From: a virus
Strand: one strand, 5' to 3'
Length of the DNA stretch: 64,000 nt
IMG/VR virus record: IMGVR_UViG_3300026488_000019
Location: 1-64,000 of that record
The translations under genes and the position numbers were made by a program. The notes below the pieces were generated by a model. The model searched no databases and was not told the DNA's origin. It was given only the letters and a program-made list of their open reading frames with translations. Of the stretch, positions 8,921-56,300 are shown one piece after another; positions within the stretch are counted from its first letter, which is position 1, and every line of letters starts with the position of its first letter.

Positions 8921-9315
8921 GTGATATTCTTAACATTATCAGATATTTCATCTAGCTTCTTTGGAATATCTTCCTCTAGCTTTTTCTTCATGCTATTCAG
9001 TAAGGATTTTACTTCCTCTAGCTTCTCAGTAATCAGTTGATTATTAGCATCATTAGTCCTATCTCTAGATTCTATTAACTTTTCTATACTGTTAATAAGA
9101 TTCTCAATATTCCTGAACTGAAGCTCCAATACTTTTTCATCAGTTTTAGGTTTATCAATTGGAACTGATATGATAAGTTTTGCCATAAATCCATAAAAAG
9201 TTCTAGTTAAGAAATATCCCCCTACTCCTCCTGCTCCCATAGACATAGAAACTACAACCAATTTCCAAGTTGGGTATTCTCTAATTGCCTTGTCCATTAG
9301 TTCTACTATTTCCAT
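8908..9315 (-). CDS. Membrane-anchored coiled-coil protein (135 aa)
   Basis: A hydrophobic segment at about residues 19-50 with several glycines is followed by a coiled coil (about 60-130) ending in alternating charged heptads. The AAGGAG site before ATG 9315 lies inside the end of the Rz1-like gene. It could be an anti-holin, a holin with a long tail or a spanin accessory. Context favours a lysis role. Confidence 0.55.
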   Translation of the reverse strand: MEIVELMDKAIREYPTWKLVVVSMSMGAGGVGGYFLTRTFYGFMAKLIISVPIDKPKTDEKVLELQFRNIENLINSIEKLIESRDRTNDANNQLITEKLEEVKSLLNSMKKKLEEDIPKKLDEISDNVKNITWRS

Positions 9316-9613
9316 TTGATACTCCTTGTTGGGTAATCAATCTACAAGACTGTAAATAATTTTGGAGAAGAATTAAGTACTGAGAAACTTGGTAAGCAGA
9401 ATCTGAATCATAGCAGTAATAAACTTTGTTATTCAACTTAACTTTGTATAGGTTAATCTGGGGAGGTTGAGGTGGATTAGGAAGTTTAGGTAAATCACAT
9501 TTATAAACAACTTTGGTTTTATAAACTATTTTAGGTTGACTGGGTTGAGTAGTAACACAACTACTTAGCAGTAGAGGAATTGTTAGAAATAAAATCCTTG
9601 AATTGGAGAACAT
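9281..9613 (-). CDS. Outer-membrane lipoprotein spanin subunit (Rz1-like)
   Basis: A short signal peptide ends in the lipobox LLSSC, and the mature part starts with a proline-rich stretch (PKLPNPPQPP), the hallmark of o-spanins. Three further cysteines are present. Its start lies inside the 3' end of the coiled-coil i-spanin gene in another frame (9561-9613), the typical Rz/Rz1 overlap. It would bridge to the inner-membrane partner and disrupt the outer membrane, so the host should be diderm. Confidence 0.8.
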   Translation of the reverse strand: MFSNSRILFLTIPLLLSSCVTTQPSQPKIVYKTKVVYKCDLPKLPNPPQPPQINLYKVKLNNKVYYCYDSDSAYQVSQYLILLQNYLQSCRLITQQGVSNGNSRTNGQGN

Positions 9614-10013
9614 TGCTTACCTCATCACTAGGATTAACTTCTACTCTAATAGTTTGGTTCTTTAAAACCTTGTTAGTATGCTCTAATTTGTAGATAGTAG
9701 TTTTTAACTTAGTTAGCTTAGTGATTAAAGAATCTCTTTCTCTAATTACTTGTTCACAAGTTTGTCTATAAGAGTTATAAGTGGAGTAACAGGCTGTGAG
9801 TTGAGATTGAATAACTTTAAGTTGGCTGTTAAGGTTATCTATGGTAGCTTGTTTTTGTTTAATCTGTTGTTTAAGGGAAATAATCTTATTCTGTAATATC
9901 TCAGTTTCTATCTTAAAGAATGTTAGTTCTCCCCAAATAAAGATTGTTGATAGTAGTGCTATACCAGTTCTGCTGAATAGAAACTTTACGAGTATTGTTA
10001 AAATTGGTAGCAT
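9561..10013 (-). CDS. Inner-membrane spanin subunit (Rz-like)
   Basis: An N-terminal transmembrane helix (residues 5-27) is followed by a long coiled coil (about 35-125) with two cysteines near its middle, as in i-spanins. The 150-aa length is usual. The gene carries the start of the lipoprotein partner in its 3' end. ATG 10013 follows AGAGGT. Confidence 0.78.
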   Translation of the reverse strand: MLPILTILVKFLFSRTGIALLSTIFIWGELTFFKIETEILQNKIISLKQQIKQKQATIDNLNSQLKVIQSQLTACYSTYNSYRQTCEQVIRERDSLITKLTKLKTTIYKLEHTNKVLKNQTIRVEVNPSDEVSNVLQFKDFISNNSSTAK

Positions 10014-12756: not shown

Positions 12757-15744
12757 TTACTCAGTCCATAAATTAACTTTGAAATTATCTACATATGTAT
12801 TTTCAATACCTTCAAGTTTGACTCTCAGTGCTCTACCTTTCTTATTAACAGTTTGGTACTTTGATCTGATAATGTCTTGATCTGTCAAGTAAGTTCTATT
12901 CTGTAGAGTTTGAAGTGTAATTCTCTGTGGAATGATAACAGATGTAATGGTAGAAGGTTGTTCTGGTACTTTAATTTGATAATTAATAGGTAAGAGATAT
13001 TGATGAACTTTGTCATCACTACCACTTAGTATATACACTTTATCGCCATTTGGATGGAAAAAGATGCTCTGTGGTTTTGACTCAATTTTATAACTTGATA
13101 CGAAAGTTGCTGTAGTAACATCCCAAGGTGTTGAAAGGTTATATTGGCAAACCAATGGGTCTGTTGTGCCTACTACATACATTTTATCACCAGTTGGATT
13201 AAAAGAAATACCAGTTAAATAGTCAAAGAATTCCTTAATACTTTTACTTGATTCAAGAGAGGCTGTGGTAACATCCCAAGGTGTTGAAAGGTTATATTGA
13301 TAAACTGTATTATTACCATCTCCAACTATATACATTTTACTTCCATCTGGATGGAAAAACAAGTCTCGTGGGTTATTGTCTTTATCTTTAATACTCTTAC
13401 TTGATACGAAAGTTGCCGTAGTAACGTCCCAAGGAGTAGAAAGGTTATACTGGTAAACTTTATCATTCCAAGAACCCACTATATACATTTTAGTACCATC
13501 TGGATAAAAGAAAATACCTTGTGGAGAGGAATCCTGGTCTTTAATACTTTTACTTGATTCAAGAGAGGCTGTAGTAACATCCCAAGGTGTTGATAGGTTA
13601 TATTGATAAACTGTAGCGTTAGTATAACCCACTATATACATTTTACTACCATCTGGGCGGAAGAAAATTCCTCCTGGATTTGTTTCTTCTTTTCCAACAG
13701 AGTAATCTGATATGAGAACCATAGTGGAAGTATCCCAACTACCTTTAGGAGTTACTTCATTCACTTTTACGTTATTACCATTAATAATTAAAGAATCTTC
13801 TGCTTTTACTAAATCCCTTCTAATGTCTTGAAATTCAAAAGATGATGTAGTAGCATTCTGTATTTTATCACTTATATCTTCGTCTTTCCACAGGCACCTA
13901 TCTGAATTAGATTCTAATGCAACATAAACTTTGGTTGGTTCTTTCCAAGCTTTTGTAGGAGGATTGGTAAGGTTAAAAGAGGAAATATCTATTTTATATA
14001 ACTCCTCTTTATATAGAGCCTTAATTTCTTCTTCTGATAAAGGCCTGTTAAAAATACGAACCTGATCTACGCTCCCTACTAGAGGTTGATAACCACCCCC
14101 ATCATAACCAGAACCTATTGTTGCATTCTTATCAGCATTTGTTGGTGTTGAAATTGATTCCGAACCTACCAAAACACTATTAACATAGAAAGATAAAGTT
14201 TTACCATCAAAAGTAACTACTAGGTGATACCAAGTCTTCTCTTTAGCAGGATAAGATATTATCTTACCAGAACTTCCTGAAATCCCATAATCAGTAAATA
14301 TTTCATTTGAGTTTGCTTTACGAGCAATTATTACTCCTCTTCTATCTACTGTGGTACCTGAAGCATAAAAATATTTGTCAAAAAATCTAGACCACTTATC
14401 ATTTATAGTATCAAATTTACCCCAAAGTGAAATAGTAAAAGGTTTAGTAGTGTCTAAAGCAGTTGAAGAGTTCTGGAGTTCTATATAACTACCTCCATCA
14501 AACTTAGCACACTTTCCAAACTTACCAATTTCGTACTGCTCACTACCTTTCCAAAGTCCATTGTACTTTCCACCTAGATCACTAGGATCTCCGTCTAAAG
14601 TATAAGTTGCAATGCAACTACCATCGTTGAAAACATCTAAAACATTAACAGTATTCACAATATCAGGATAACCATCTAGTTGTTTTTCTATTACTTCATT
14701 GTTAGAACATACTAATAAATTTTCACCTTTCAAAACTTCTGTTACAGTTTTAATTTCATTAACATCTGCTGAAACTATCTTAACTTCTCTAGGCTTTTCG
14801 TCAACTTCAATCTGATACCAATTCCAATCACTATCAGTTTCTTCTTGTTCAAAAGGTGTTGATACCCAAATAGAAAAAGATTCTTTCCTAAAAGCTTGTT
14901 CAGGAGCTTGGCTTAAATAGGAAAGTTGACAATGGTAATATTTCTCTCCAAGAGATAATAATTTAATTTCTTCTTCAGATAGGATACGATTAAAAATACG
15001 AATCTGGTCAACATAGGTTCCACTGCAAGCAAAATCGTTAGGATTATTATTGTCTGGATCCCAATCTCCTCCAATAAGTAAAGGTCTATCTACAGTTGAT
15101 AAATCAACCGAAGGTATTTCCAAAACCTTTTCACCATCTACATAAACATTTCCTAATGTATCAACAACTAGATGATGCCATAAATTATCCTCATAAGTTA
15201 GAGGAAGTGGTTTTGTGGATTCACCTTGATTAATATCAAAAAACATCTTCTTCTTTAGATCAGTTGTATATTGCCACAAATTTAAAATATTTTTACCGTT
15301 ACCAAAAAAGCTAAATAAACAGTGTTGAGCTGAAGTATCAATCTCCCCTTGTTTAAACCAAAAAGAGAGGGTTACTGTAGCTGGAAAACTACTAACACCA
15401 GTTTTTATAGAATTGTTTCCATTAAATTTAGCACATTGGTCAAACTTACCTGTATCATATTGTTCACTACCATACCAAGTTCCATTATGATTACCTGATA
15501 AGTCATTAGCATTCCCATCCAAAGTATAAGTTGCAATGCAACTACCATCACCAAAAATATCAAGAGTGTTGATAAAATTCAGTTCATCAACTTTTGACGG
15601 AGTAAACTCAACGAATTTATCAGATTTATTATAGACAATTATTTTATCCTTATTTGATATCCTATCAAAAAGATATAAGTCGTCTTTTGTTGTTTTTGAA
15701 GTTATTATACGAAGTTCTTTCCATCCGCCTTTAAGTGCTTTCAT
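12757..15744 (-). CDS. Large tail fibre with two LamG-like domains and a beta-propeller
   Basis: 995 aa. Two homologous LamG/concanavalin-like domains occupy about residues 60-265 and 370-580; each begins DGSCIATYTLDG and ends with a VDQVRIFNRPLSEEEIK-type strand. Residues ~675-915 hold five ~50-aa repeats containing PDGTKMYIVG and VYQYNLSTPWDVTTA, a blade-like pattern of beta-propellers. A separate beta domain follows. Such architecture suggests glycan binding at the host surface. The near-identical repeats imply recent internal duplication. It is flanked by an FN3-like protein and a small gene in the adsorption module. Confidence 0.75.
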   Translation of the reverse strand: MKALKGGWKELRIITSKTTKDDLYLFDRISNKDKIIVYNKSDKFVEFTPSKVDELNFINTLDIFGDGSCIATYTLDGNANDLSGNHNGTWYGSEQYDTGKFDQCAKFNGNNSIKTGVSSFPATVTLSFWFKQGEIDTSAQHCLFSFFGNGKNILNLWQYTTDLKKKMFFDINQGESTKPLPLTYEDNLWHHLVVDTLGNVYVDGEKVLEIPSVDLSTVDRPLLIGGDWDPDNNNPNDFACSGTYVDQIRIFNRILSEEEIKLLSLGEKYYHCQLSYLSQAPEQAFRKESFSIWVSTPFEQEETDSDWNWYQIEVDEKPREVKIVSADVNEIKTVTEVLKGENLLVCSNNEVIEKQLDGYPDIVNTVNVLDVFNDGSCIATYTLDGDPSDLGGKYNGLWKGSEQYEIGKFGKCAKFDGGSYIELQNSSTALDTTKPFTISLWGKFDTINDKWSRFFDKYFYASGTTVDRRGVIIARKANSNEIFTDYGISGSSGKIISYPAKEKTWYHLVVTFDGKTLSFYVNSVLVGSESISTPTNADKNATIGSGYDGGGYQPLVGSVDQVRIFNRPLSEEEIKALYKEELYKIDISSFNLTNPPTKAWKEPTKVYVALESNSDRCLWKDEDISDKIQNATTSSFEFQDIRRDLVKAEDSLIINGNNVKVNEVTPKGSWDTSTMVLISDYSVGKEETNPGGIFFRPDGSKMYIVGYTNATVYQYNLSTPWDVTTASLESSKSIKDQDSSPQGIFFYPDGTKMYIVGSWNDKVYQYNLSTPWDVTTATFVSSKSIKDKDNNPRDLFFHPDGSKMYIVGDGNNTVYQYNLSTPWDVTTASLESSKSIKEFFDYLTGISFNPTGDKMYVVGTTDPLVCQYNLSTPWDVTTATFVSSYKIESKPQSIFFHPNGDKVYILSGSDDKVHQYLLPINYQIKVPEQPSTITSVIIPQRITLQTLQNRTYLTDQDIIRSKYQTVNKKGRALRVKLEGIENTYVDNFKVNLWTE
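12990..13720 (-). repeat. Tandem coding repeats (beta-propeller blades)
   Basis: Five ~150-nt direct repeats within the large fibre gene. Blocks encoding YNLSTPWDVTTA are almost identical at the nucleotide level between copies, so the blade number may change by recombination. Confidence 0.8.
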
Positions 15745-15761
15745 ATGTTAAGCCTCCAATA

Positions 15762-16940
15762 TTAAGCTGTTAAGTCCCAACCATCATTATATTCAGTACT
15801 ATCTTGAAAGTTGGAAACACTTACAGCTGAATCAGATACAAGTGGTACATTTTTAATAGTAAGTTGCTTAGAAACTCTTTCAGTTGCGTCATTACCATCT
15901 GAATTCCTAGTTACCCATAAAGTAATGGTAGCTGTTGTGTCTTGATCTACTTCAGGCAATTCCCAAGTAAAATGCATTCCTGTTACTGTAAGTGTCCCAT
16001 GAGTAACAGTTCCACTTAAGGAATACTTAGAAGTATCAAAAGTCCTACCGTCATCATGGGTAACATCACCTTCCACTGTAGAAAGCTCATTCTCTTGGGA
16101 CGGAATTGTATATTCAATTTGGTACTTGGTAGTGTTATACTCTAGTACATTAGACCAGTTTGAAGAATGACCTTTATCTCCATTATACCTAGCTCTTACA
16201 TAATAAGTTGAATCTACATCAAGTACATCAGAAGAAATTGTTAGTGTATCCTGTTTTGATGGATCAGTTTCAGTGTAGCTAAAGACTAGATTACTAAATT
16301 CAGAATCAGTAGCTATTTCCCAATTAGTACTTTTCCAATTGTCTGAACATCCTACTGCTTTAAATGATGTAAGTTTAAATGTAGGATAAAGTGAACCTGT
16401 ATCAGATGTAGATAATGTAGGTGTTTCTATGTAAGCACTAGCTGTTGTAAACTTAACAGGATCAGACCAGTCTGATATGTGGTAATCTGATTTATACCTT
16501 ACTCTTACATAGTAAGTAGTTTCTGGGTCTAAGTTTTTGGGTTGATAAGAGGTTAAGTTAATAGTATCGTTATATGAGGACTCAACTATATTAGTAAACT
16601 CAGAATCAGTAGCTATTTCCCAATCAGATGCTTGATGAGTACCATAGAAATGCTGTGTTGGTTGAAATGGAGAAGACTCAATTGTTCCTAAAAAATCAGT
16701 TTCTCTATTAGTAGGGTTAGTAATAGTTGGTTTAACTATTACAGTAGCATCTTTCTTTGAAACACTTTCAATGGTTTCTGAAAGAGTCTCTAACTCTTGA
16801 ACTAGGTATTGATCATTTTCTAACAGTTGGGCTATTGGTCTATTAGCAACTCCTTGAGGAGTATCATCTGTAGTTCCATCAAACTTTTCGTATTGTTTAT
16901 ACCAATTTAAATTGTGGTAAGGAAGTTTCTTTTTGGCCAC
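15762..16940 (-). CDS. Fibre protein with two fibronectin type III-like repeats
   Basis: 392 aa. After an N-terminal part that reads like a virion attachment segment, two repeats share WEIATDSEF, TYYVRVRY and DWSDPVKF-type strands, characteristic of FN3-like modules in phage tails. A further Ig-like domain follows (about residues 270-365). FN3-like domains in virions mediate weak glycan contacts. A GAGG-type site precedes ATG 16940. Confidence 0.65.
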   Translation of the reverse strand: MAKKKLPYHNLNWYKQYEKFDGTTDDTPQGVANRPIAQLLENDQYLVQELETLSETIESVSKKDATVIVKPTITNPTNRETDFLGTIESSPFQPTQHFYGTHQASDWEIATDSEFTNIVESSYNDTINLTSYQPKNLDPETTYYVRVRYKSDYHISDWSDPVKFTTASAYIETPTLSTSDTGSLYPTFKLTSFKAVGCSDNWKSTNWEIATDSEFSNLVFSYTETDPSKQDTLTISSDVLDVDSTYYVRARYNGDKGHSSNWSNVLEYNTTKYQIEYTIPSQENELSTVEGDVTHDDGRTFDTSKYSLSGTVTHGTLTVTGMHFTWELPEVDQDTTATITLWVTRNSDGNDATERVSKQLTIKNVPLVSDSAVSVSNFQDSTEYNDGWDLTA

Positions 16941-16970
16941 TATTTGATCCTCCCAATCAGCTTCAACAAA

Positions 16971-17825
16971 TTAAGGAATTTTATACAACACAAAAGTAGA
17001 AAATTGAGAGGCTGAGGAAAGCTGAGATTTAAGCCTTTCTTTATCTTTGGTTATATGAAAAGGATTACCATTTTCAAAGATTTCAACATTAGGATACAGT
17101 TTAATGTCTTGAGAATAATAAGTAAGCTTATTATAAGCTTCTTTAACAGAACGGAGATTACTCCCTACTCCGTCTTGAATATAACAGTATATAAAAGGAA
17201 GATTGCATAAATCTTTTATGTATTGAAAATTTGGATTACTACAACCATTCCAGTAAGGAGAAACAACTGTAACGTATTTATACTTTTGGTATGCATAATT
17301 AGCAACTTCCCTTACATAAGAGGAATAGTTATCAAAAATAACACATAAGTTGAGTTCTTCAGGAATGTAAACTCCTAAAATGGAGGATTTCCATTTTGAA
17401 TAAATCCAATCTATATATCTTTTTTGATGTTCAACCCATTCTTTATTATAGTAACCATTAGACTGAGCAAATTTAGGATAATCTACATCTAAGCCAACAA
17501 TCACCTGAAAATTATTATCAATTAGATGTTGAATAATTCTGTTTTGGTTCCGTATATCTAAGTTTCCATTGTAAGTATCATAATTGACAATAAAGAAGCT
17601 AAAATCACAGTTTAATTCTGCTTCAGTTAGATAAATTTTCTCTAACAAGTTTTCTGGAGAATCTTTGTGATATTTATCTTGATAAATAAATGCTCCAACC
17701 TCATTATTTAATACCAACTTCATTTCAGTTCCAGTTGACTTGTTAGAAGGAGGGTTGTTGCCACCTCCTCCACAGGATATAAAAGTAGTAGCAACAACCC
17801 CCAAAATAACAAATAAACTACGCAT
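16971..17825 (-). CDS. Lipoprotein with TIM-barrel glycosidase-like domain
   Basis: Residues 1-17 are a signal sequence ending in the lipobox FISC followed by GGGG, so the product should be acylated at Cys18. The mature part alternates hydrophobic strands and helices (FFIVNYDT, VIVGLDVDYP, ILGVYIPEELNL, YVTVVSPYW, LPFIYCYIQDG), an eight-strand barrel rhythm resembling DUF4434-type glycosidases; IPEE could hold catalytic acids. It is unusual for a lipoprotein to be coded between fibre genes. It may act on surface glycans, block superinfection or be a moron. Assignment of the fold is by eye only. Confidence 0.6.
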   Translation of the reverse strand: MRSLFVILGVVATTFISCGGGGNNPPSNKSTGTEMKLVLNNEVGAFIYQDKYHKDSPENLLEKIYLTEAELNCDFSFFIVNYDTYNGNLDIRNQNRIIQHLIDNNFQVIVGLDVDYPKFAQSNGYYNKEWVEHQKRYIDWIYSKWKSSILGVYIPEELNLCVIFDNYSSYVREVANYAYQKYKYVTVVSPYWNGCSNPNFQYIKDLCNLPFIYCYIQDGVGSNLRSVKEAYNKLTYYSQDIKLYPNVEIFENGNPFHITKDKERLKSQLSSASQFSTFVLYKIP

Positions 17826-17827
17826 TT

Positions 17828-18415
17828 TTATCCTCTTGATGCAGTGTTGGTACTATCTGATGTAGCAGTAGAACTGCTATTTTGAAGTAAGTTAATAGCG
17901 TCTTGAATAGTATAGTCTAACACAAAGAATTTATGGGTAGGTCTTATCCAAAACTTTACCTCAGTCTTGGTTGCTAAGGAATGAAAAATTCTTTCTTTTA
18001 TAGTAAAAGCGTTAGGAACTATTGAATATACCTTAGTTACCTTATAGACTCCAGGAAAAAGAAAGGTTAATTTCATTCTGGATGAGTTAGAGTTTCGGAA
18101 TACCACTGGAACTAGTAGCGAATGGGTTTTAGAAGTAATTTCTACCAAATAGTAAGAGTTCTCTAAAGCTAAAGGTTTTCTTAAATAAATATCTGAATAC
18201 ACCTCAACTGTATAATTGTAAGGTTGTCCTTTTTCTAAGAAGTACTTTCCTGAAAATACAAAGGTAATGTCTGTTTCAGTAGGTAAATACTCCAAAGGTT
18301 CTATGTACCAATCTTTTCTATTTATGTTACCTTCATAGTAAGAAAAACCATCTAATTCTAGAATAGGAGTTAAAGGTATTTCCTTTTTATAAGTTGTAGG
18401 CACACGAAATTTCAT
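17828..18415 (-). CDS. hypothetical virion-associated beta protein (195 aa)
   Basis: Strand-rich protein with many tyrosines and a Ser/Thr-rich C-terminal tail (SSSTATSDSTNTASRG). It begins 2 nt from the end of the 704-aa fibre gene. Probably a fibre or baseplate-attached component by position. No domain recognised. Confidence 0.5.
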   Translation of the reverse strand: MKFRVPTTYKKEIPLTPILELDGFSYYEGNINRKDWYIEPLEYLPTETDITFVFSGKYFLEKGQPYNYTVEVYSDIYLRKPLALENSYYLVEITSKTHSLLVPVVFRNSNSSRMKLTFLFPGVYKVTKVYSIVPNAFTIKERIFHSLATKTEVKFWIRPTHKFFVLDYTIQDAINLLQNSSSTATSDSTNTASRG

Positions 18416-18416
18416 A

Positions 18417-20531
18417 TTAAGCCTCCTTTGGAAGTGCAGAGTAAGCTATTAATTCATACTCATGTGGACCTTGAAGTGAGCAAGAAACAGTCTGTTCTTT
18501 TGTTTCTTCAAAGATTTCTGGTACTTCATTAAGGGTTTCATCAGCAGTATCAGTTGAATAGGTCTTACGTTCAAATTCATATTCTAACTTGTCTTTGTTT
18601 ATTAAGCTAGTTCCTTCAGATACAAGAACTTTTTCGTCCTTTCCATACACTAACTTTGAAACTGGTTCATAGTCTGGAGCAATCCATATCCTAATATGAT
18701 AGTCGTCATATTCATCTTTAAAAAACTTAAAAGCAAAGTAGCACCCAAATACCTTTTTGTTGAGGAGATAGTCATTAAGAGCTCCAGTATAATGGGTATT
18801 CAGTATATTACCTGATCTATCAACTAACATTCCACCTATCCACATCTTTTCAATAGAGGAGTCACATAATTCAAAAAGACGAGAACCAAGTTCTACAACT
18901 TTGTAGGTTGTATCATTTTCCTTTCTAAGGAAAGTATTTTTAGCAAGAGGTACTAAATCAGTAGGTCTTAATGAATCATCTAAAAAGATAATGTAAGGAG
19001 AGTTGAGAGAATTACTAGGAGGTAAAGAACCCTCACCTTTCCATTTGTAGGTTTTACCTGAATTTAGGTCTGATATAACAAATCTATCATCAGGAGTGTA
19101 ACTAACATCACGAATTAATACAGCCAACCTTTTGTCTAAGGAAAAGGACATAAAAGGAACTTCATTATAATGAGTGATAGTATCTATTGCTGTATTTGGA
19201 AACTTAAAAGTAATTAAATTTTTATCTGGAGTTGATACAGCGTAAAAACATTGTGATGCATTAGTCAAAATACCATAACTAGAAGGACAATCTTGGGAGG
19301 AACTGCTAGGACAATTCACATTTGTTTTAGTTAAAACTAGACCTCTTACTCTAAAGTAGTCGCTATAGTATTTATAATTACCAAAAGTTTCCATCCAAAG
19401 TCTAGAAGAATCTGTAACTAAATCTTGACTGTGAGTATCTTGAGCTCTATACTCAACATAACCATCAAGGTCAAGATATGAACAAAAACTTCTTACTGTA
19501 GTAGAGGAGCAAATACAATCTGGATGAAGTGTCCAACCATCATCTTTACAAGTTCCATGACAAGTGTAATAATCTATATCTACATTTGGTCCGTAGCCTA
19601 ACTCAACAGAATCTGATTCTTCAATTGCATATTTCCTAATTTTCTTCTCCTTGAAATCATAAGATATGAGAAGTCCTGAAGAACTAAGTAGGAATTTAAA
19701 AGAATTACTCTGAACAATTGGTTTGTTAAATTCAGTAGAAGGGTCATCGTTTCCTTCTACTACAACTCCATATCCACTAGCAAAAGTCAACTCATTAAAC
19801 AAGATATAGTTTATCGTATTCCCTTTTTGAACTTTCAAAACGAATGGTACTTTACCTACTTCTCTAGGAGTAATATATGAAATCCTGAATTTATTGCTAT
19901 CTAACTTCTTAACTACTAATCTTGGGTCATTAGAAATTATTTCTACATTATCAGGAGCTTGGTCAAAATTGAAGGTGAGGTCATAGTAATAAACATTTTG
20001 TTTAGTGCAAGTCCAGTACCAAAATACCTCTATTTCTTCTTTAGTCTTACCTTCATAATCTACTACATCCCAAGAGTTAAGGTTGGAAAAGTTTTCGCTA
20101 CTATCTTTACATGTAACTTCTATAAAAGCAGGTTCAGAAAGATTACCTAACCTGTTTACTGCATAACAAACGATTTTAAACTTATCTCCTGGTTTAGCAT
20201 CAGAAGGAATAGTAAATTCTAAGGTGTCCCCTGCTACTGAATTACCATCAGGTAAAATCCACTTGTAGAAGATGTATTCAGAAGGGTCTCTTGGTATAGA
20301 AAAACCTGCTTTTAATGTAATCTTTTCACCAGCTTTTCCACTAGCTTCTCCCCAAACTAAAGGCTTAGTTAATTGAATTTCTAGAGCACTTAATTTACCT
20401 AAACTTGAACTGATTTGTTCAGAAAGCTCTTCAAAATTAGAGTTCATATCGTTGGAAAGGTTGTCAATGTCAAAACCCAACTCTCTAAGTTTCTTGTAAA
20501 TAGCTGGAGTTAAAAGTTCAAAACTTCCCAT
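18417..20531 (-). CDS. Tail fibre/baseplate protein with Ig/PKD-like domain (704 aa)
   Basis: Residues 1-50 are helical and may trimerise. Residues ~55-145 resemble an Ig/PKD module ending IEVTCKD, then another beta module to about 260. A cysteine-rich stretch (CHGTC, CICS, then FCSYL, about residues 325-350) may form disulfides or bind metal. The rest looks like a large beta-propeller or sandwich with repeated DLN/DG turns. Position immediately downstream of the collar fibre supports a structural or adsorption role. Confidence 0.6.
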   Translation of the reverse strand: MGSFELLTPAIYKKLRELGFDIDNLSNDMNSNFEELSEQISSSLGKLSALEIQLTKPLVWGEASGKAGEKITLKAGFSIPRDPSEYIFYKWILPDGNSVAGDTLEFTIPSDAKPGDKFKIVCYAVNRLGNLSEPAFIEVTCKDSSENFSNLNSWDVVDYEGKTKEEIEVFWYWTCTKQNVYYYDLTFNFDQAPDNVEIISNDPRLVVKKLDSNKFRISYITPREVGKVPFVLKVQKGNTINYILFNELTFASGYGVVVEGNDDPSTEFNKPIVQSNSFKFLLSSSGLLISYDFKEKKIRKYAIEESDSVELGYGPNVDIDYYTCHGTCKDDGWTLHPDCICSSTTVRSFCSYLDLDGYVEYRAQDTHSQDLVTDSSRLWMETFGNYKYYSDYFRVRGLVLTKTNVNCPSSSSQDCPSSYGILTNASQCFYAVSTPDKNLITFKFPNTAIDTITHYNEVPFMSFSLDKRLAVLIRDVSYTPDDRFVISDLNSGKTYKWKGEGSLPPSNSLNSPYIIFLDDSLRPTDLVPLAKNTFLRKENDTTYKVVELGSRLFELCDSSIEKMWIGGMLVDRSGNILNTHYTGALNDYLLNKKVFGCYFAFKFFKDEYDDYHIRIWIAPDYEPVSKLVYGKDEKVLVSEGTSLINKDKLEYEFERKTYSTDTADETLNEVPEIFEETKEQTVSCSLQGPHEYELIAYSALPKEA

Positions 20532-20543
20532 TTATACCTCCAA

Positions 20544-21749
20544 TTAAGAAAGAGTTTGATTAACAGTAATTGGTAAATTGTCCTCATTGTAAGAGATATT
20601 TTCAGTAATAGTATTACCACTAAACTGGTAGGTAACAGTAGTAGGTAATCCGTCTTCATTATAAGTTATTGATACAGTTCCTAATTCTTCACTTTTTGAG
20701 CTATCCTTCCAAACTTGAATAGTCTCAGGTAGGTTATCTGCATTGTAAGAAATCTCTTTATAGTAAGTTCCTTTATAGTCTCCTAATACAACAGCCCTTA
20801 ATATCTCTAACGCAAAATTGGAATTTTGAATAGAGGAAGAACTTACATTAGAAAGATCTGATAGAACATAGTCAGCTCCTAATCCACTATAAGCAAAAAG
20901 GAGAACTACTTTATCAGTTAAAGCATAACCTACTCTAACAGAAGTTTTGTTCTGAGTAAAAGAACCAGCTTCAGTATCAGATAGATAAACCATTTGATTA
21001 GGGTTAAATGTAGCATTAGGTATTTCTACTAATCCTGAAACTACTAAAGAATTCCTACTAGGGAAAGCTACTCCTATAACCTTCTCTTTTTCTGAACCAT
21101 CAGCTATGGCTGGATAATACTTTCCATCAGAACCTCTGTAAACTAACATTCCATCATTTACAGAAGAGTCAAATACAGCTTTCTCATCCCAATATTGCCC
21201 TACATAGGTAAACTCTGAACCATTACACAAGTCAACAAAAATTCCAGCCTTCTTTAAAGCATTTAGTAAATGAGTATGAGCACAAGGAGCAGAGTTGTGG
21301 TCTTCTATATCTGGAACTGCTGTATATACAAATTCAAAAAGGTCTGTTGCATCTATGTTCTGAATTTTAATCTGAATAAGAAGGGTTAAAGTTCCAGCTG
21401 GGTCATATTGGATAACAGGATCAGCTTGGTGGATAGCTAATAGGAAGTCTTGTCCTTCAGGATTAGTTCCTACTAAGTAAATCTCTGCTACATCTTTAAC
21501 TTCAGTAGTAGCTTTATAAGGAATAGTACATCTAAATTGAACTGTGTCGTAAGAGATAATATCTACACCTGATATGTTTTCAAATCCAAACCAAGTAGGA
21601 TTAATGTCATTAATAGTTCTACTTGAATCTAATTTTCCTTTAGTATCTGATACAGCAAACTTAACAGGTTTAATAAAGAAACCTTCTTTATTAGCTACTT
21701 TAATGGAATTGGCTAAACCTTCATTGGTAATGATACCCGTTATGGCCAT
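20544..21749 (-). CDS. Tail-collar fibre protein (DUF3751-like N-terminus)
   Basis: The first 160 residues (MAITGIITNEGL, then FAVSDTKG and the IPYKATTEVKDVAEIYLVG strand) match the phage tail-collar fibre domain that attaches side fibres to the P2-type gpI/J baseplate. The middle contains a head-binding-like beta region. The last 50 residues have three YN-D-LP-T repeats reminiscent of YD/RHS repeats. It directly follows the gpI-like gene, the usual order. Confidence 0.78.
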   Translation of the reverse strand: MAITGIITNEGLANSIKVANKEGFFIKPVKFAVSDTKGKLDSSRTINDINPTWFGFENISGVDIISYDTVQFRCTIPYKATTEVKDVAEIYLVGTNPEGQDFLLAIHQADPVIQYDPAGTLTLLIQIKIQNIDATDLFEFVYTAVPDIEDHNSAPCAHTHLLNALKKAGIFVDLCNGSEFTYVGQYWDEKAVFDSSVNDGMLVYRGSDGKYYPAIADGSEKEKVIGVAFPSRNSLVVSGLVEIPNATFNPNQMVYLSDTEAGSFTQNKTSVRVGYALTDKVVLLFAYSGLGADYVLSDLSNVSSSSIQNSNFALEILRAVVLGDYKGTYYKEISYNADNLPETIQVWKDSSKSEELGTVSITYNEDGLPTTVTYQFSGNTITENISYNEDNLPITVNQTLS

Positions 21750-35997: not shown

Positions 35998-36426
35998 TTA
36001 AGCATTCTTAACTTCAAGCTTACCTACAAACTGAGGAACAATTACCTCTACTCCAGCCCATACAGCAACAGCCCTCTGGTTTGTTAGTGGGTTAGGGGAA
36101 AGTGGAATGAGGTCTGTAGTGGTGAGAGGCATATAAGGAGCATAAACTGCAGCACCTTCAAATGGATTATCAGGATTATAAATTCCTAATGCTACATTAG
36201 CAGGTAGTGCATTAGCATCATTAACCCTAATAACAGTTACTCCATCAAGAGTACCAAATACATGAGCACCCATTGCCTTACCATCAGCTATCTTCTCAAA
36301 TCCAGGGAGAGTTGAAAGGATGGATGCTACCTTAGCACCTGCTATGATAACATTAATAACTCCTCTACCTGCATTCTGAACAATAGAACCTTCAAGGTCT
36401 GCAAGTGCGTCCTTAACTGTTTGCTT
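35998..36426 (-). CDS. Major capsid protein (T4 gp23-like), exon 2
   Basis: C-terminal 142 residues of the capsid protein. KQTVKDALADLEGSIVQNAGRG joins directly onto exon 1 FEH after splicing. Later strands (GAHVFGTLDGVTVIR, GAAVYAPYMPL, PNPLTNQRAVAVWAGVEV) match the HK97-fold C-terminal half of gp23 family proteins. An unspliced GTG start at 36432 gives only a fragment with no plausible function. Confidence 0.85.
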   Translation of the reverse strand, partial: KQTVKDALADLEGSIVQNAGRGVINVIIAGAKVASILSTLPGFEKIADGKAMGAHVFGTLDGVTVIRVNDANALPANVALGIYNPDNPFEGAAVYAPYMPLTTTDLIPLSPNPLTNQRAVAVWAGVEVIVPQFVGKLEVKNA

Positions 36427-37721
36427 CATCACCTTCAGCAGGGATCGCTACTCCCCACCCGTCTTACCAGGAGGTTCTATGTAATCTTTATACTTTCTAA
36501 GATAAGTTTTCCAAGTAGGATAAGAATTGGGATAATATTCTTTCCTCACTCTTTCATAATTTTCTTCAGTACAGGGAAGAGAAAGTTCATTAAGCTTATC
36601 CAGAATCTTAACTATCATTCTAATGGTTCTTTGTCTCAGACCTTCTTCAGTATGAACTTTCATTCCTTTAGTAATTCTTATTAAACCTTTAGCTAACTTC
36701 TCCTTTCTAGTTTTAACTCTCTTCTCAATTGCCTCTTTAGGCATCTTCCTACCTTTAAGCTTCTCACTAATCTTCCTCTTGGTCTCCTCGCTATGTCTCC
36801 TTCCTCTGGACTTTTCACCTATTTTTCTCCTAGTTTCCTCGCTCCACTTTCTACCCCAATTAGGATGCTCAGGCCCTCTTGGGTAATACCTACTTCCTAT
36901 CTTCTTTCTAGTTTCTTCATCAAATTTTCTTCCAAATCTCTTCTTCCTTATTTCAGAGGGTAACCCTTCTCCTGAAACTCCATCACCACCAGGAGTAAGG
37001 TTATGTAGAGGGCCTTGCCCTAACTCATACCTTCCTATGGTAGCTATTAGTTCTTTTTCTTTCTCTAACGCTTCCTCTTCTGTTAAACCTGAAAATACTT
37101 CCAAAATAATAGGTTCAAGTCCAGCATTCCAAATAGCTTTAATTTGGTTATTTTTAGGGTGCTTAATACCCTTCCTCGCTTCATCCAAATGAGCAAACTT
37201 TCTCTTCCCTGTACCCTTACCTACATAGAAAGGTTCATAATCAAACTCATACTTACCATACTTGAACTTTCCAGGATAACGAGGGTCTAGGTAAACATAT
37301 ACATAGAACCTTCTGGCAGACCGCCCAGAGGTTTCCCTCTGGGATGGGACTATATCACCACTCTGGGGCATTTTATTAACCTCCTAAAGCAGGATATATG
37401 ATTATTATAACCTATAACCCCAGAGTGCCCCCCATTTCGTCCTCGCTTGAGGACTACTCCAGGGCAGGAATCCAAAATAGGATTCCTGTTTATCCCCTTG
37501 GATAGTCTCTGAACCTTCCCCATAGGTATCATAAGATACCTTTAGGGGCTTGGCTGCGGGTTGCCCATTTCAGGAGTTTTACTCCCTCATCCCTTAGCTT
37601 TTTACCATACCCACAGGCTTGCGACCTGTGGCCCTCACTAAGGTTTCCCTTAGTGAGTTGGTACTAAGGGCTTTAGGGCTTTCCCGCAATTAGGGGGGTT
37701 TAACGAGCACTAGCAAAACTA
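36427..37721 (-). ncRNA. Group I intron in the major capsid gene
   Basis: Self-splicing ribozyme, 1295 nt. Conserved cores are readable: P (AATTGCGGGAAAGCCC, 37676-37691), Q (37545-37562, AACCCGCAGCC), R (GTTCAGAGACTATCC, 37500-37514) and S (GATATAGTCCC, 37342-37356); R and S pair as P7 (GACTAT/ATAGTC). The 5' site follows GAGCAU, which pairs with GUGCUC inside the intron (P1, U-G at the site). The last base is G, and exon 2 AGCAAA pairs with UUUGCU (P10). Loss restores one 460-codon frame. It carries an endonuclease gene. Confidence 0.93.
36448..37371 (-). CDS. GIY-YIG homing endonuclease (intron-encoded) with NUMOD3 repeats
   Basis: 307 aa. The GIY-YIG core is present as FYVYVYLDP and FYVGKGTGKR, with a downstream Glu-rich helix (EEEALEKEKELI). 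Several NUMOD3-like DNA-binding repeats follow (SEETRRKIGEK, SEETKRKISEKLKG, each ending GR). It would spread the intron to intronless capsid alleles. GGAGG before ATG 37371 sits in the loop of intron helix P8, and the first codons contain the S element, so coding and ribozyme sequences overlap. It ends in TAG 21 nt before the 3' splice site. Confidence 0.9.
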   Translation of the reverse strand: MPQSGDIVPSQRETSGRSARRFYVYVYLDPRYPGKFKYGKYEFDYEPFYVGKGTGKRKFAHLDEARKGIKHPKNNQIKAIWNAGLEPIILEVFSGLTEEEALEKEKELIATIGRYELGQGPLHNLTPGGDGVSGEGLPSEIRKKRFGRKFDEETRKKIGSRYYPRGPEHPNWGRKWSEETRRKIGEKSRGRRHSEETKRKISEKLKGRKMPKEAIEKRVKTRKEKLAKGLIRITKGMKVHTEEGLRQRTIRMIVKILDKLNELSLPCTEENYERVRKEYYPNSYPTWKTYLRKYKDYIEPPGKTGGE

Positions 37722-41090: not shown

Positions 41091-42350
41091 TTATAGGTTA
41101 GTCAATCCCCACTTATAACCATAGTCTTGTTTAATTGGTTTTGGACAAGAGCCTACAAAATCAAAGAAGTCCTGAGTTGATTTTACTGATAAAGCTATGT
41201 AAGGGAATTTCTTTTTGGTTTTGTATTCAGTTCCAGTTCTTAAATATGCTTTTAATCCAAGTTTATTAAGTTGTTCTACCAAAAAGTTAACCTCTTCAAA
41301 AGTAAAACAATTGGTAGCAAAATGGATGAAAGGTTTACCTTTTGATGGTTTAATTAGACTCCCATCACCAATATACCAATGAAGAACAACTGTTGGAGTA
41401 AGTTTTAAATCTTTTGGTATTATCTTCTTTCCATTCCGATACCATCTATGATATTGCTCTGTTAAACAAGGATATTTTCTTGTAGAAAAATAAAATGCTA
41501 TACTACCAGGTTTAAATCCTTTTTCATTGACCTTTTCATAAATTTTACCACACTCCAAACCTTCATCAATAAACTGTTGTCTTAGCCACTCTATATAATT
41601 CTTGTGTTTATCAGTATGCTGATAACAAGAATTAGAGTTTAAAGATTTTGGTTTAGCTAAAGACCCATCTCCAAGTAATAACCCATCCAAAACTTGCTTA
41701 AAATAATCTGAAAGTTGGTGATAAAAGTTAGAAACGGAAGAATTAGCTTCATTTACATTCCTTATAGGAATATTATACTTCTTTAATAAATTAGAAACAG
41801 TTTTATAATGAATTCCTAACTCCTTTGCAATTTCTTTTATTGACTTCTTTTTAATTACATATTCTTGATATAACCACTCTCTTCCAATAGCGGGTTTAAA
41901 CTTTTCTCTTGATACAAAACCAAATTTATCAAACCAATATTTAACTGAAGAAGGATCTACATCACATTCTTCAGCAATTTGTTTTATAGATTTTTCTTTA
42001 ACATAATACTCATTATAAAGCCATTCTTTATTAGTGTACTTTCCTTTCTTATGCCATCTTCTTATTGGTATTCCAAATTTCTTTAACCACTTTAATATAA
42101 CAGTTTCAGAAACCCCTAATTCTTCTGCTATCTGAATAGTTGATTTTCCTAACTTTACATATTGTTCCTCTAACCATTCTTTGTTTTGATAAAGTTTCTC
42201 TGGATAACCTAATCCAAATTTTCTTGCCCACTTCTCAATAGTATCTCTATTAACTCCTAACTCTTTCGCCACTTGAATTCTTGATTTACCTTTTACAATT
42301 AATTCATTATACAACCAATCTCTATTCCTGTAAGGTTTATTCTTAAACAT
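41091..42350 (-). CDS. Free-standing LAGLIDADG homing endonuclease with four HTH repeats
   Basis: 419 aa. Residues 1-200 are four ~48-aa repeats, each with a WLYNEY or similar helix, then KSIKEIAKELG and a WLKKFGIP recognition-helix end: homeodomain-like HTH modules. The C-terminal half has two LAGLIDADG helices, VLDGLLLGDGSL near 220 and VLHWYIGDGSL near 330, plus the usual YKTKKKFPY strand. No intron or intein can be seen around it, so it is a free-standing mobile gene inserted between head genes, overlapping the upstream gene by 1 nt. Confidence 0.88.
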   Translation of the reverse strand: MFKNKPYRNRDWLYNELIVKGKSRIQVAKELGVNRDTIEKWARKFGLGYPEKLYQNKEWLEEQYVKLGKSTIQIAEELGVSETVILKWLKKFGIPIRRWHKKGKYTNKEWLYNEYYVKEKSIKQIAEECDVDPSSVKYWFDKFGFVSREKFKPAIGREWLYQEYVIKKKSIKEIAKELGIHYKTVSNLLKKYNIPIRNVNEANSSVSNFYHQLSDYFKQVLDGLLLGDGSLAKPKSLNSNSCYQHTDKHKNYIEWLRQQFIDEGLECGKIYEKVNEKGFKPGSIAFYFSTRKYPCLTEQYHRWYRNGKKIIPKDLKLTPTVVLHWYIGDGSLIKPSKGKPFIHFATNCFTFEEVNFLVEQLNKLGLKAYLRTGTEYKTKKKFPYIALSVKSTQDFFDFVGSCPKPIKQDYGYKWGLTNL

Positions 42351-52859: not shown

Positions 52860-55800
52860 TTAATTAGCACAACTTACACACTCTTCTTTAGTTTGTTTTC
52901 CCTCTGCTTTAGCTACTATTCTAGCGTAATAAAGAGCTTTTATTTTACTCTTCCAAGCTTTATAAATAAATTGACCTAATATCCTACCTACTTCTTCTTT
53001 TGGAATAAAGCCATCTCTTATGTTAACTGGGTAATCAAAGGAAATCCCTGAGTCTATATACTTTTGGATAAACGAAACTATCTCTATTACATCGTATAAG
53101 TCCTGCTCAGTAAACTTTGAGTACTCATCATAATAGAACCAACCTTCTGTGATATATCTAGGGAATACTACATAAACTCCAGTAGACTGCTTTTCAGTCT
53201 GAATAAGGTTGAATGGAGGGGAAATGCTCGCAGTAGTTCCTGCGTAGATAGATGTAGAAGTATTAGGAGGAGCATTTAACAGCATTGTATTCCTGATACC
53301 ATATTTCTGAATATCTTCTATCAACTCATCAACTTCACCCCTATCTACATCAAATTCAACAGTAGTAGAAACTTCAAAACCTTCTCCATAAGGAATTTGA
53401 CCTAAGAATACTTCATCCCACTTGGTTTCACTATACTTATTTGCCCTACCTCTCTCTTTAGCTAAATCTACGCTAGCTCTTATAGAATAAAATGCTATCC
53501 TACCAAATATCTGCTTAAGCAAGTTGAACAACTCATCTTTGTTAACATTTCTACTAGTTAACCTGTAAGCGTATAACTTACCATTATCTATTGACTTCCT
53601 AACGAGCAAATCTGCTAGTCCCACAAAACCTATTCCTAAAGTTCTGTAATCCTGATTGTGCTTTTTAATCTCATAGATAGGATGACCTGCTATATCAAGA
53701 ATGTTGTCCATATACCTAACTACTAACCTCATCAAAGAACTTAATTTCTGATTATCCTGTAAATAACCTAGCTCATACAAAACTGGTAAATTAAGGGAAA
53801 GAAGATTGCAAGAATGTACATAACCTAAATCTTCTATCTTTTCATCAGGTTTCTTACCTTCAGGGTTTGAGTTAGAAAATGGGGAATAAGACTCAACACA
53901 ATTACCAGTCAGAACTCCATTTAAAATACCTCTATTTAATTTCGGCTCAAAAAAGCAATAACTATCAGAAACAAAACCATCAAGTTTTCTTATTGACTTA
54001 ACTCTTACAAATTGGCTTGCCTCTCTATTTGGAACTTTTCTACCTTTCAAATCTAATCTCTTAGGATTGAAACCAAGCTCAATTAACTTTGCTAAGTTAT
54101 ACGCTGAAATTAATATACGCTTTGTCTCTTTACAATAATAATCTTTATAACCACCTTTACCATCTGGCATACTACGATAACCAGCTTCACAACCATCAAC
54201 TATCTTAGATTGAATACCTAATGTATCTAACATTCTTTTTACATTTAGCAAGAATTCAAAATTAATAGAAGACAATTGGAGTGTGTAAGTATTACCATTC
54301 CTCACTACTGTACCATCACCATCAAATAATCCCTCAAGCCATCTTATCCTACTCTCAACAGTATAACTGCTATCAGGAACAAAAAACTTATCTTTCAGTA
54401 CCCCTTTCTTATAATAGACATCTATGCGATTAATTTTCTTATTACTGTATGTTCTATAATATCCACTCAAATAATCAATTAACTTTCGCTTCTTATCGTA
54501 TAAGTAAATACAATCTACACCATCATAAGCAGTACCTTCTGCTGTAAATAATCCATTTTCATATGCATACTCAAGTATTTTATAACCTTCTATAACAGGC
54601 AAATTCCATTTTTCTAAAACATCTCCTTCAGAGAGCTCAAAAGTTCTTTTAACTTTCGTTTTACTATGATAAGGTCTTGCTTTATCTCCTCTAACATACC
54701 ACCTATGATAGTCTGTTACAATAATTTTTTCACCGTTAGTAAATTCTATCTCATACCAATCACTATAATTATCCCCTGTCTTAAATATTGCTGATTTACT
54801 CCATTCTACACCATTCCAAACTTCAAGAATCTGCCCTGCCACTTTTTTTATCTCAATATAACCGTATTCTTTGGTAAGGATTCTGGTATCAGGAGCTACA
54901 CAAAGGTTCCCACACTTAATTTGCTCCTTAAAAGGAGAATACTGATTTACTGTGTCTACAAAGAAGAGATAAGGCATTCCTGATGCCAATATGTTCTTTA
55001 TCAGTTGCCTATAAATCTCCCTAGCTTTATAAACTTTACCTCTTACCTTTCCTTGCTTAACTAACTCTTCTGCTTTCATATAATTTTCTTCAAACTCCTC
55101 CCCCCAACAGTTTACCAAGTCAATACCATACTTCATCTTCAACTCATAGTGATCTATAAGTGTCCAATCTTTATTTTCTTTAACTTTTTCCATAAATAAG
55201 TCTGGAATTACTACTTGAGGATATAAAGAAAACATTTTCATACGAATTTCACCGATAGGATTACGCATAGCCATAAAGTCCAATATATCCATATGCCATA
55301 TAGGGAGGGCTACTGTCCCAGCTCCTTTGCGTTTTCCAAGCTGATCTACTGTATCTAACATATCGTCAAGTATTTTACACCACTTTAATATTGATACTGA
55401 TTTACCTTTATTTCCTTGTATATAACTTCCATTAGGCCTTATCTCTCCAAGATAAATACCTAACCCTCCTCCTCTTTTACTAATCTCTGCAACTTGCCAA
55501 AATGAATACATAATACTTTCAAGGTTATCGTGAATATCAAGGATATTACAAGATGATAAATTACCTTTAGCTCTTCTAAGGTTAGAAAGTTGAGGGGTAG
55601 CTGGAATTATTGTTCTATCAAGTAATAGCTTGTAAAACTTTTTAACATTATCTATAAATAGCTCTTTATTCTGTTTATAGTCTGGAAGAAAACCAAGAAT
55701 GGAAATCAAAAGGAGAGCTTCGGCAAAAGTTTCTATTGGTCTATTATTGTAAGTCAAAATATATGATTTTGAAAATTTTACTACCTGATAGTAAAAGTCA

Positions 55801-56300
55801 TTCCACATAAAATAAGGAAAGTTATAATTATAATCTAACTGAACCTTTTTAGCATACTCATAGAGTTCTTCAAGAATGTCATTAGAGATTTTGAGTATTC
55901 TCTCATCATAAATACCTAATTCTATATACTTTTTTAAGTGAAAAATCCAATCGTTAGCATTTTGAAAAAACCCATAATCATCAGTAAAAGTGTCATACTC
56001 CCTTTCTCTATGTAATCTTATGTCTTTTATCCAATCTAATAAATAAAACCTACCTGCTAGAATAGAATAGTCCTTAATTCTACCTTTATCTGATATTGAA
56101 AGCTTATTAGCAGTAGCTATTAAATTCTGTTGAATTTCTTTGGTAGTAATACCAGACTTAAGAGTAAAGCGAAATTCTTTCCAAAATTGCTCATCATCTA
56201 TATTTAGACCTTGCCTGCAAAAGTTATACATCTTAATAATCTTATCCATACTGAAAGGTTCTTTATGACCGTCTCTCTTTACAACTTCAATTCCTATCAT
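52860..56300 (-). CDS. nrdA: Ribonucleotide reductase alpha subunit with intein (class I)
   Basis: 1146 aa before splicing and 812 after removal of residues 467-800. Class I/II core motifs: N-terminal ATP-cone-like region, LSSCNILDIHDN (first active-site Cys), RGGGLGIYLGEIRPNGS, NLC|VESYSPF with the partner cysteine, NAPPNTSTSIYAGTT and the C-terminal CVSC reduction pair. It reduces ribonucleotides to deoxyribonucleotides with the beta subunit two genes away. The gene starts 4 nt inside the ThyX stop. The intein interrupts the NLC active-site loop, so activity requires protein splicing. Confidence 0.93.
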   Translation of the reverse strand: MIGIEVVKRDGHKEPFSMDKIIKMYNFCRQGLNIDDEQFWKEFRFTLKSGITTKEIQQNLIATANKLSISDKGRIKDYSILAGRFYLLDWIKDIRLHREREYDTFTDDYGFFQNANDWIFHLKKYIELGIYDERILKISNDILEELYEYAKKVQLDYNYNFPYFMWNDFYYQVVKFSKSYILTYNNRPIETFAEALLLISILGFLPDYKQNKELFIDNVKKFYKLLLDRTIIPATPQLSNLRRAKGNLSSCNILDIHDNLESIMYSFWQVAEISKRGGGLGIYLGEIRPNGSYIQGNKGKSVSILKWCKILDDMLDTVDQLGKRKGAGTVALPIWHMDILDFMAMRNPIGEIRMKMFSLYPQVVIPDLFMEKVKENKDWTLIDHYELKMKYGIDLVNCWGEEFEENYMKAEELVKQGKVRGKVYKAREIYRQLIKNILASGMPYLFFVDTVNQYSPFKEQIKCGNLCVAPDTRILTKEYGYIEIKKVAGQILEVWNGVEWSKSAIFKTGDNYSDWYEIEFTNGEKIIVTDYHRWYVRGDKARPYHSKTKVKRTFELSEGDVLEKWNLPVIEGYKILEYAYENGLFTAEGTAYDGVDCIYLYDKKRKLIDYLSGYYRTYSNKKINRIDVYYKKGVLKDKFFVPDSSYTVESRIRWLEGLFDGDGTVVRNGNTYTLQLSSINFEFLLNVKRMLDTLGIQSKIVDGCEAGYRSMPDGKGGYKDYYCKETKRILISAYNLAKLIELGFNPKRLDLKGRKVPNREASQFVRVKSIRKLDGFVSDSYCFFEPKLNRGILNGVLTGNCVESYSPFSNSNPEGKKPDEKIEDLGYVHSCNLLSLNLPVLYELGYLQDNQKLSSLMRLVVRYMDNILDIAGHPIYEIKKHNQDYRTLGIGFVGLADLLVRKSIDNGKLYAYRLTSRNVNKDELFNLLKQIFGRIAFYSIRASVDLAKERGRANKYSETKWDEVFLGQIPYGEGFEVSTTVEFDVDRGEVDELIEDIQKYGIRNTMLLNAPPNTSTSIYAGTTASISPPFNLIQTEKQSTGVYVVFPRYITEGWFYYDEYSKFTEQDLYDVIEIVSFIQKYIDSGISFDYPVNIRDGFIPKEEVGRILGQFIYKAWKSKIKALYYARIVAKAEGKQTKEECVSCAN
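53901..54902 (-). mobile_element. Intein with LAGLIDADG endonuclease in reductase alpha subunit
   Basis: 334 residues between NL and CVESYSPF. It starts with CVAPDTRILT (block A, Cys1), has a block B-like VTDYHRW, a LAGLIDADG helix WLEGLFDGDGTV (and a second shortened block) and a C-terminal LNGVLTGN followed by extein Cys. The penultimate residue is Gly instead of the usual His. The insertion point is the conserved NLC site favoured by reductase inteins. Confidence 0.92.

Follow-up and report, generated by a model that had tools for sequence, protein, structure and literature searches.

The locus and its variable cassette

The stretch of DNA analyzed here (hereinafter the window) covers nucleotides 1-64000 of an 84,995-base IMG/VR virus record and contains, on its minus strand at 16971-17825, a complete ORF with an ATG start coding for a 284-aa protein. 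The original prediction had placed this gene between fibre genes, which is a fair description: it lies inside the tail module, with 704-aa and 195-aa ORFs upstream and an FnIII-like 392-aa and a LamG/beta-propeller 995-aa ORF downstream, though the 195-aa neighbor matches no family. The stop codon of the 195-aa ORF is separated from the start codon of the 284-aa ORF by a gap of just 2 nt. The genes and sites of this region are:

15762..16940, minus strand: FnIII-like tail protein that is conserved and bounds the cassette downstream (35% identity in the sister phage L004, 85% in G020)
16971..17825, minus strand: predicted DUF4434-like (beta/alpha)8 barrel lipoprotein (complete ORF; profile and AlphaFold2 evidence)
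17832..17836, minus strand: Shine-Dalgarno-like AGAGG, about 6 nt 5′ of the ATG of the 284-aa ORF
17828..18415, minus strand: 195-aa ORF of the same variable cassette (no family match; no counterpart in L004)
18417..20531, minus strand: 704-aa fibre-like ORF of the same variable cassette (assigned by position; no family match; no L004 counterpart)
20544..21749, minus strand: 401-aa tail protein that is conserved and bounds the cassette upstream (L004 counterpart 56% identical across 286 aa)

This contractile-tailed phage is related to the T4 supergroup; it has a sheath, a Gp23-type capsid protein, an S77 prohead protease and a gp6-like baseplate wedge protein. Two overlapping minus-strand ORFs resemble a spanin pair, the one at 9561-10013 being i-spanin-like (150 aa) and the one at 9281-9613 an o-spanin-like lipoprotein that has weak LysC/Rz1 matches. 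The pair suggests a host with an outer membrane, and the phage probably infects a Gram-negative bacterium. Elsewhere in the window, the gene for the ribonucleotide reductase large subunit (52860-56300, minus strand) is split by an in-frame LAGLIDADG intein-like insert, and the head-gene region holds homing endonuclease genes of the LAGLIDADG (41091-42350, minus strand) and GIY-YIG (36448-37371, minus strand) types, the latter adjoining a Gp23 capsid fragment (35998-36432). Further observations concern an 899-aa fusion of a uracil-DNA glycosylase domain, at the N-terminus, to a family A DNA polymerase (L095:16016-18715, plus strand; record positions 80016-82715), and, in the same phage, two IS605 TnpB-like (Cas12f1-like TNB) genes that lie on opposite strands about 0.7 kb apart (L095:8230-9744, minus; L095:10472-11890, plus).

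Comparison with sister phages brought out the variable nature of the site. The phage on an 88.8-kb record (L004) follows the window colinearly between 33.5 and 12.3 kb, its proteins being 33-81% identical; it has no counterpart of the 704-aa, 195-aa or 284-aa genes and carries at their site genes for a Gp53-like tail fibre, for proteins of 233 and 363 aa and for a DUF4376 protein. In a closer relative (G020) the gene next upstream of that for the FnIII protein codes for 179 aa and the lipoprotein is missing; a further record (G021) likewise has fibre-like genes at this position. Profile searches of the sister records recovered no copy of the 284-aa gene, which is absent from G003 and G020, two records that show the site in full, and from that part of the site visible in G021; a search of IMG/VR gave no relative of the 704-aa fibre-like ORF. 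Since the flanking tail genes are shared and other genes take its place in the sisters, the 284-aa gene belongs to a variable cassette, which is presumably receptor-specific, its neighbors having putative receptor-binding roles. We also observed that the baseplate genes upstream of the shared FnIII gene in G020 (L107:3521-8328) are very different, which suggests large-scale exchange of baseplate modules.

A consensus scan found nothing promoter-like on the minus strand between the upstream end of the cassette and the 284-aa gene, and nothing terminator-like across 15700-20700; hence, the gene looks co-transcribed with the tail genes, and its translation probably occurs late, off the tail transcript. 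The original prediction had offered a moron as one reading of the gene: its absence from the site in relatives agrees with this, but with neither a promoter-like nor a terminator-like site of its own, a moron in the strict sense was set aside. The position within the tail operon without a promoter-like site of its own, and the tail-fibre genes at the same site in sister phages, would also suit a virion-associated or released depolymerase, that is, a protein exported late that helps break down capsule or biofilm when the cell lyses, or a small glycanase carried on the tail. Glycan-active tail proteins are indeed common in phages.

A predicted lipoprotein signal and tether

Two further elements precede the globular part of the protein:

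17772..17825, minus strand: signal peptide (residues 1-17) and lipobox Cys18 (FIS-C), by sequence and lipobox rule
17700..17771, minus strand: Gly/Asn/Pro/Ser-rich tether, residues 19-42 (GGGGNNPPSNKSTGTEM...), free of predicted secondary structure

The lipoprotein signal claimed at the outset stands up to scrutiny. The N-terminus (MRSLFVILGVVATTFISCGGGGNN) displays a basic n-region residue, a hydrophobic h-region, the lipobox F-I-S-C and a glycine at position +2, and its first 18 residues (MRSLFVILGVVATTFISC) fit the lipoprotein signal rule as a class-II signal (...TTFIS-C18-GGGG). When a PS51257-like rule (Cys at 15-35, basic n-region) was run on window ORFs of at least 60 aa, just two of the 98 passed, these being the 284-aa ORF and the o-spanin-like ORF at 9281-9613; a chance lipobox was accordingly set aside. 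The tether region has low confidence in the alignment-based AlphaFold2 model (pLDDT about 51 for residues 11-40). From the signal we infer that the protein is lipidated at Cys18 and located in the envelope; a glycine at +2 suggests sorting to the outer membrane under the E. coli Lol rule. Such a signal would export the protein from the cytoplasm, the site of tail assembly, which counts against the depolymerase raised above; moreover, family searches gave no match to a trimerisation or baseplate-attachment domain and the predicted domain is a stand-alone barrel. We regard a virion-associated or released depolymerase as unlikely.

A remote relationship to DUF4434

Searches of Pfam, PHROGs and PDB sequences (phmmer for PDB) returned no meaningful match for the 284-aa protein, and a PDB phmmer match to the GH18 structure 4wiw (E 4.8) was dismissed as chance level. 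The DUF4434 family was first suggested by motifs spotted by eye (GVYIPEE, VVSPYW, QDGVG and NVEIF). Its members were retrieved with an approximate sequence as bait, and all tests used the real sequences retrieved; the seven retrieved proteins that were scanned, one of them from an unverified gut phage scaffold, all pass PF14488 strongly. A nine-member DUF4434 (PF14488) profile matched residues 77-278 of the 284-aa protein with 27.8 bits, as against at most 5.7 bits for 2000 shuffled targets and at most 3.4 for the other window ORFs. The score holds at 17-27 bits upon removal of member subsets, a 60-sequence profile gave 20.3 bits (shuffle maximum 5.6), and hhalign comparisons with DUF4434 profiles gave a probability of 93-95%. 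PF14488 itself, with its gathering threshold of 30 bits, gave no match at E up to 10, and for this reason we treat the protein as a divergent DUF4434 relative rather than a formal member. Identity to aligned members is 13-22%, and 11 of the 15 near-invariant columns are kept, a count to be read against 200 realigned shuffles with a mean of 4.6 and a maximum of also 11. Two hallmarks are missing: the tryptophan of the GWY motif is replaced by V152, and the DD.NW segment after the beta4 glutamate is absent.

Closer relatives were sought widely. A tblastn search in phages and plasmids found no real relative; IMG/VR and genome scans with the single 284-aa sequence, and IMG/VR scans with two alignments (A4 and A5), found none; and 103 Thermotogota genomes yielded sub-significant fragments only. 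A further alignment (A2) was too divergent to serve in a pattern search. Overall, we are confident in naming the protein a DUF4434-like barrel lipoprotein, and the filing of its barrel as a divergent DUF4434 (PF14488) relative that keeps both predicted catalytic glutamates is well supported. Within the literature and sequence collections searched, a DUF4434-like lipoprotein in a phage tail cassette appears to be undescribed; its components, namely the fold family, the lipoprotein class and the module logic, are already known.

The predicted barrel and its conserved glutamates

The globular domain and its conserved positions are as follows:

16974..17699, minus strand: (beta/alpha)8 barrel domain, residues 43-284 (AlphaFold2 with a 40-sequence alignment; Foldseek)
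17355..17357, minus strand: E157 codon; the residue follows directly on beta4 (GVYIPEE), is the predicted acid/base and does not vary in the alignments A7 and A2
17163..17177, minus strand: QDGVG motif, residues 217-221, end of beta6, from conservation in A7
17082..17084, minus strand: E248 codon; the residue closes beta7 (NVEIF), is the predicted nucleophile and likewise does not vary in A7 or A2

A glycosidase-like barrel rhythm had been read from the sequence, and structure prediction, proposed at the time as a check, is in line with it. Given an alignment of 40 sequences (A7: the target and 39 DUF4434 relatives, 13-21% identical), AlphaFold2 produced eight alternating beta/alpha units (pLDDT 81, pTM 0.79); the single-sequence model was poor (pLDDT 45). 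A Foldseek search with the alignment-based model recovered as its best natural PDB match 4h41 (E 4e-7, TM about 0.6), the DUF4434 protein BT_0435 of Bacteroides thetaiotaomicron, a match that is not independent because the alignment consisted of DUF4434 relatives; clan GH-A glycosidases, GH10 and then GH1, ranked next. Clan GH-A enzymes were also among the top, if weak, matches of the poor alignment-free model.

Across the 40 sequences of A7, E157 and E248 are invariant, as they are in A2; within the QDGVG motif, Q217 and G221 are invariant and D218 and G219 are conserved in at least 90%. In clan GH-A enzymes the acid/base and nucleophile glutamates sit at the ends of beta4 and beta7, and E157 and E248, placed likewise in the model, are the predicted catalytic pair. 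The modeled barrel fold and these glutamate positions would thus be shared with clan GH-A glycosidases (GH10, GH1, GH5), from which the 284-aa protein differs in showing no sequence match and in having an activity that is only predicted. With 4h41/BT_0435 and DUF4434 at large it shares the (beta/alpha)8 barrel, the two invariant glutamates, a remote profile match and the order of motifs (beta1 ..Q, VGL.D, G.Y..EE, VSP, QDGVG, VE.F); unlike them, it falls below the Pfam threshold, is phage-encoded, has a Gly-rich lipid-anchored tether and lacks the GWY tryptophan. To our knowledge, no DUF4434 protein has a proven activity, and 4h41 is a "putative" fucosidase.

Bacterial relatives and the NfrA connection

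A genome scan that used DUF4434 members as queries yielded 80 loci, all from one subfamily, and in 70 of these the DUF4434 gene is directly preceded by a gene for an NfrA_C-like exopolysaccharide exporter, a proportion valid for that subfamily alone because it was chosen by its own motif. The Pfam NfrA_C domain was confirmed in four examples of the upstream gene. This adjacency occurs in Pseudomonadota, Thermodesulfobacteriota and Elusimicrobiota (L015-L094), and in E. coli ybcH follows nfrA. NfrB and NfrA, the synthase and exporter of an exopolysaccharide, are required by phage N4 and make its glycan receptor (PMC8669469, PMC8669472); YbcH is described as periplasmic, with an uncleaved signal anchor, and as dispensable for N4 infection (PMC8669469). 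DUF4434 is not named in the open literature searched. Several bacterial DUF4434 proteins carry a lipobox, and the phage protein is thus not alone in its predicted lipidation. A clear DUF4434 protein (140 bits; L014:310-1419) also lies on MT838497, a gut phage scaffold marked "UNVERIFIED" and of possibly bacterial origin.

The 284-aa protein scored 25.0 bits with a mostly non-NfrA-linked DUF4434 set as against 13.7 bits with an NfrA-linked set. In a phylogenetic tree it fell outside the 99/96 clade of NfrA-linked proteins and beside a Petrotoga protein with weak support, a position that is unreliable because its branch is very long (3.89 changes per column). Its membership in the YbcH clade was set aside, given this placement and its tail-gene neighbors in lieu of NfrA_C. 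As an exported, DUF4434-type envelope barrel it resembles YbcH of the nfrBA-ybcH operon and the other NfrA-linked proteins; it differs in lying outside their clade and having no NfrA neighbor, and in that the signal anchor of YbcH is described as uncleaved. These results bear directly on a scenario of periplasmic interference, wherein a YbcH-like mimic cleaves or blocks the growing chain in an NfrA/NfrB-type system such that the receptor glycan is not displayed. The strong genomic linkage of a DUF4434 subfamily to NfrA exporters, the periplasmic location described for YbcH and the glycine at +2, which by the Lol rule of E. coli suggests an outer-membrane destination, all speak for it, but the better score with the mostly non-linked set and the position outside the linked clade make the link to exopolysaccharide export one of family analogy only, and we do not think this scenario likely.

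The long branch, together with the loss of the GWY tryptophan and the DD.NW segment, would fit a lipoprotein that retains the barrel but has lost catalysis and acts by binding glycan or plugging a receptor; retention of the QDGVG motif and of both predicted catalytic glutamates argues against this, and we hold it to be quite improbable. Some DUF4434 genes adjoin sugar-uptake genes, for instance those for an MFS sugar porter and a ROK regulator in Bacteroides finegoldii (L007). By this token the phage protein might serve metabolism, as a lipoprotein glycosidase of the outer membrane that nourishes the host while it is infected and has no part in adsorption; however, its gene sits in the variable cassette of the tail operon and not with metabolic genes, and we give this option very little credence.

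A presumably lipid-anchored protein that may edit a host surface glycan

Our preferred reading, which we put forward tentatively and at somewhat less than even confidence, is that of a lipid-anchored, late-made, glycosidase-like protein that edits a host surface glycan and thereby limits re-adsorption. The lipoprotein would be translated late together with the tail genes, and its divergent DUF4434-type (beta/alpha)8 domain would be held by a flexible tether to a lipidated Cys18 in the infected cell's envelope. There it would hydrolyse, or at least bind, an envelope glycan of the host (exopolysaccharide, capsule or LPS side chain), the target being the one recognised by the phage's own fibres. 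The receptor would consequently be stripped from the dying cell and its debris, which would spare progeny from loss and lower superinfection. The role and purpose, the substrate, the catalysis, the side of the membrane, the lipidation and the late timing are all elements that we infer. A late-made protein would be better suited to shielding progeny against debris that still bears the receptor than to early superinfection exclusion, with which co-transcription alongside late tail genes agrees poorly.

This proposal has a parallel in the Llp lipoproteins of T5/BF23 and the Cor lipoproteins of T1-type phages, where a phage lipoprotein gene likewise lies beside receptor-binding genes as a swappable module (PMC4728585). 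In T5/BF23, the llp gene for the receptor-blocking lipoprotein adjoins the receptor-binding gene and is non-homologous between phages using different receptors (PMC4728585, PMC9586334). Llp is small and blocks its receptor by binding (PMC9586334), whereas the 284-aa protein is a much larger, enzyme-like barrel. T5 Llp, the model exclusion lipoprotein of phages, is periplasmic (PMC9586334), and because it binds from that side, surface exposure of the 284-aa lipoprotein is not to be assumed. An outright enzymatic erasure of the receptor, in which a tethered DUF4434 glycosidase removes the glycan matching the phage's own fibres and is swapped with them as one module, strikes us as rather doubtful; if true, it would be the catalytic counterpart of the stoichiometric receptor-blocking Llp and Cor lipoproteins. 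For the family as a whole, a phage-borne, lipid-anchored DUF4434 member in a receptor-region cassette would allow a direct test of the function of this fold, and would point to enzymatic superinfection exclusion or progeny release.
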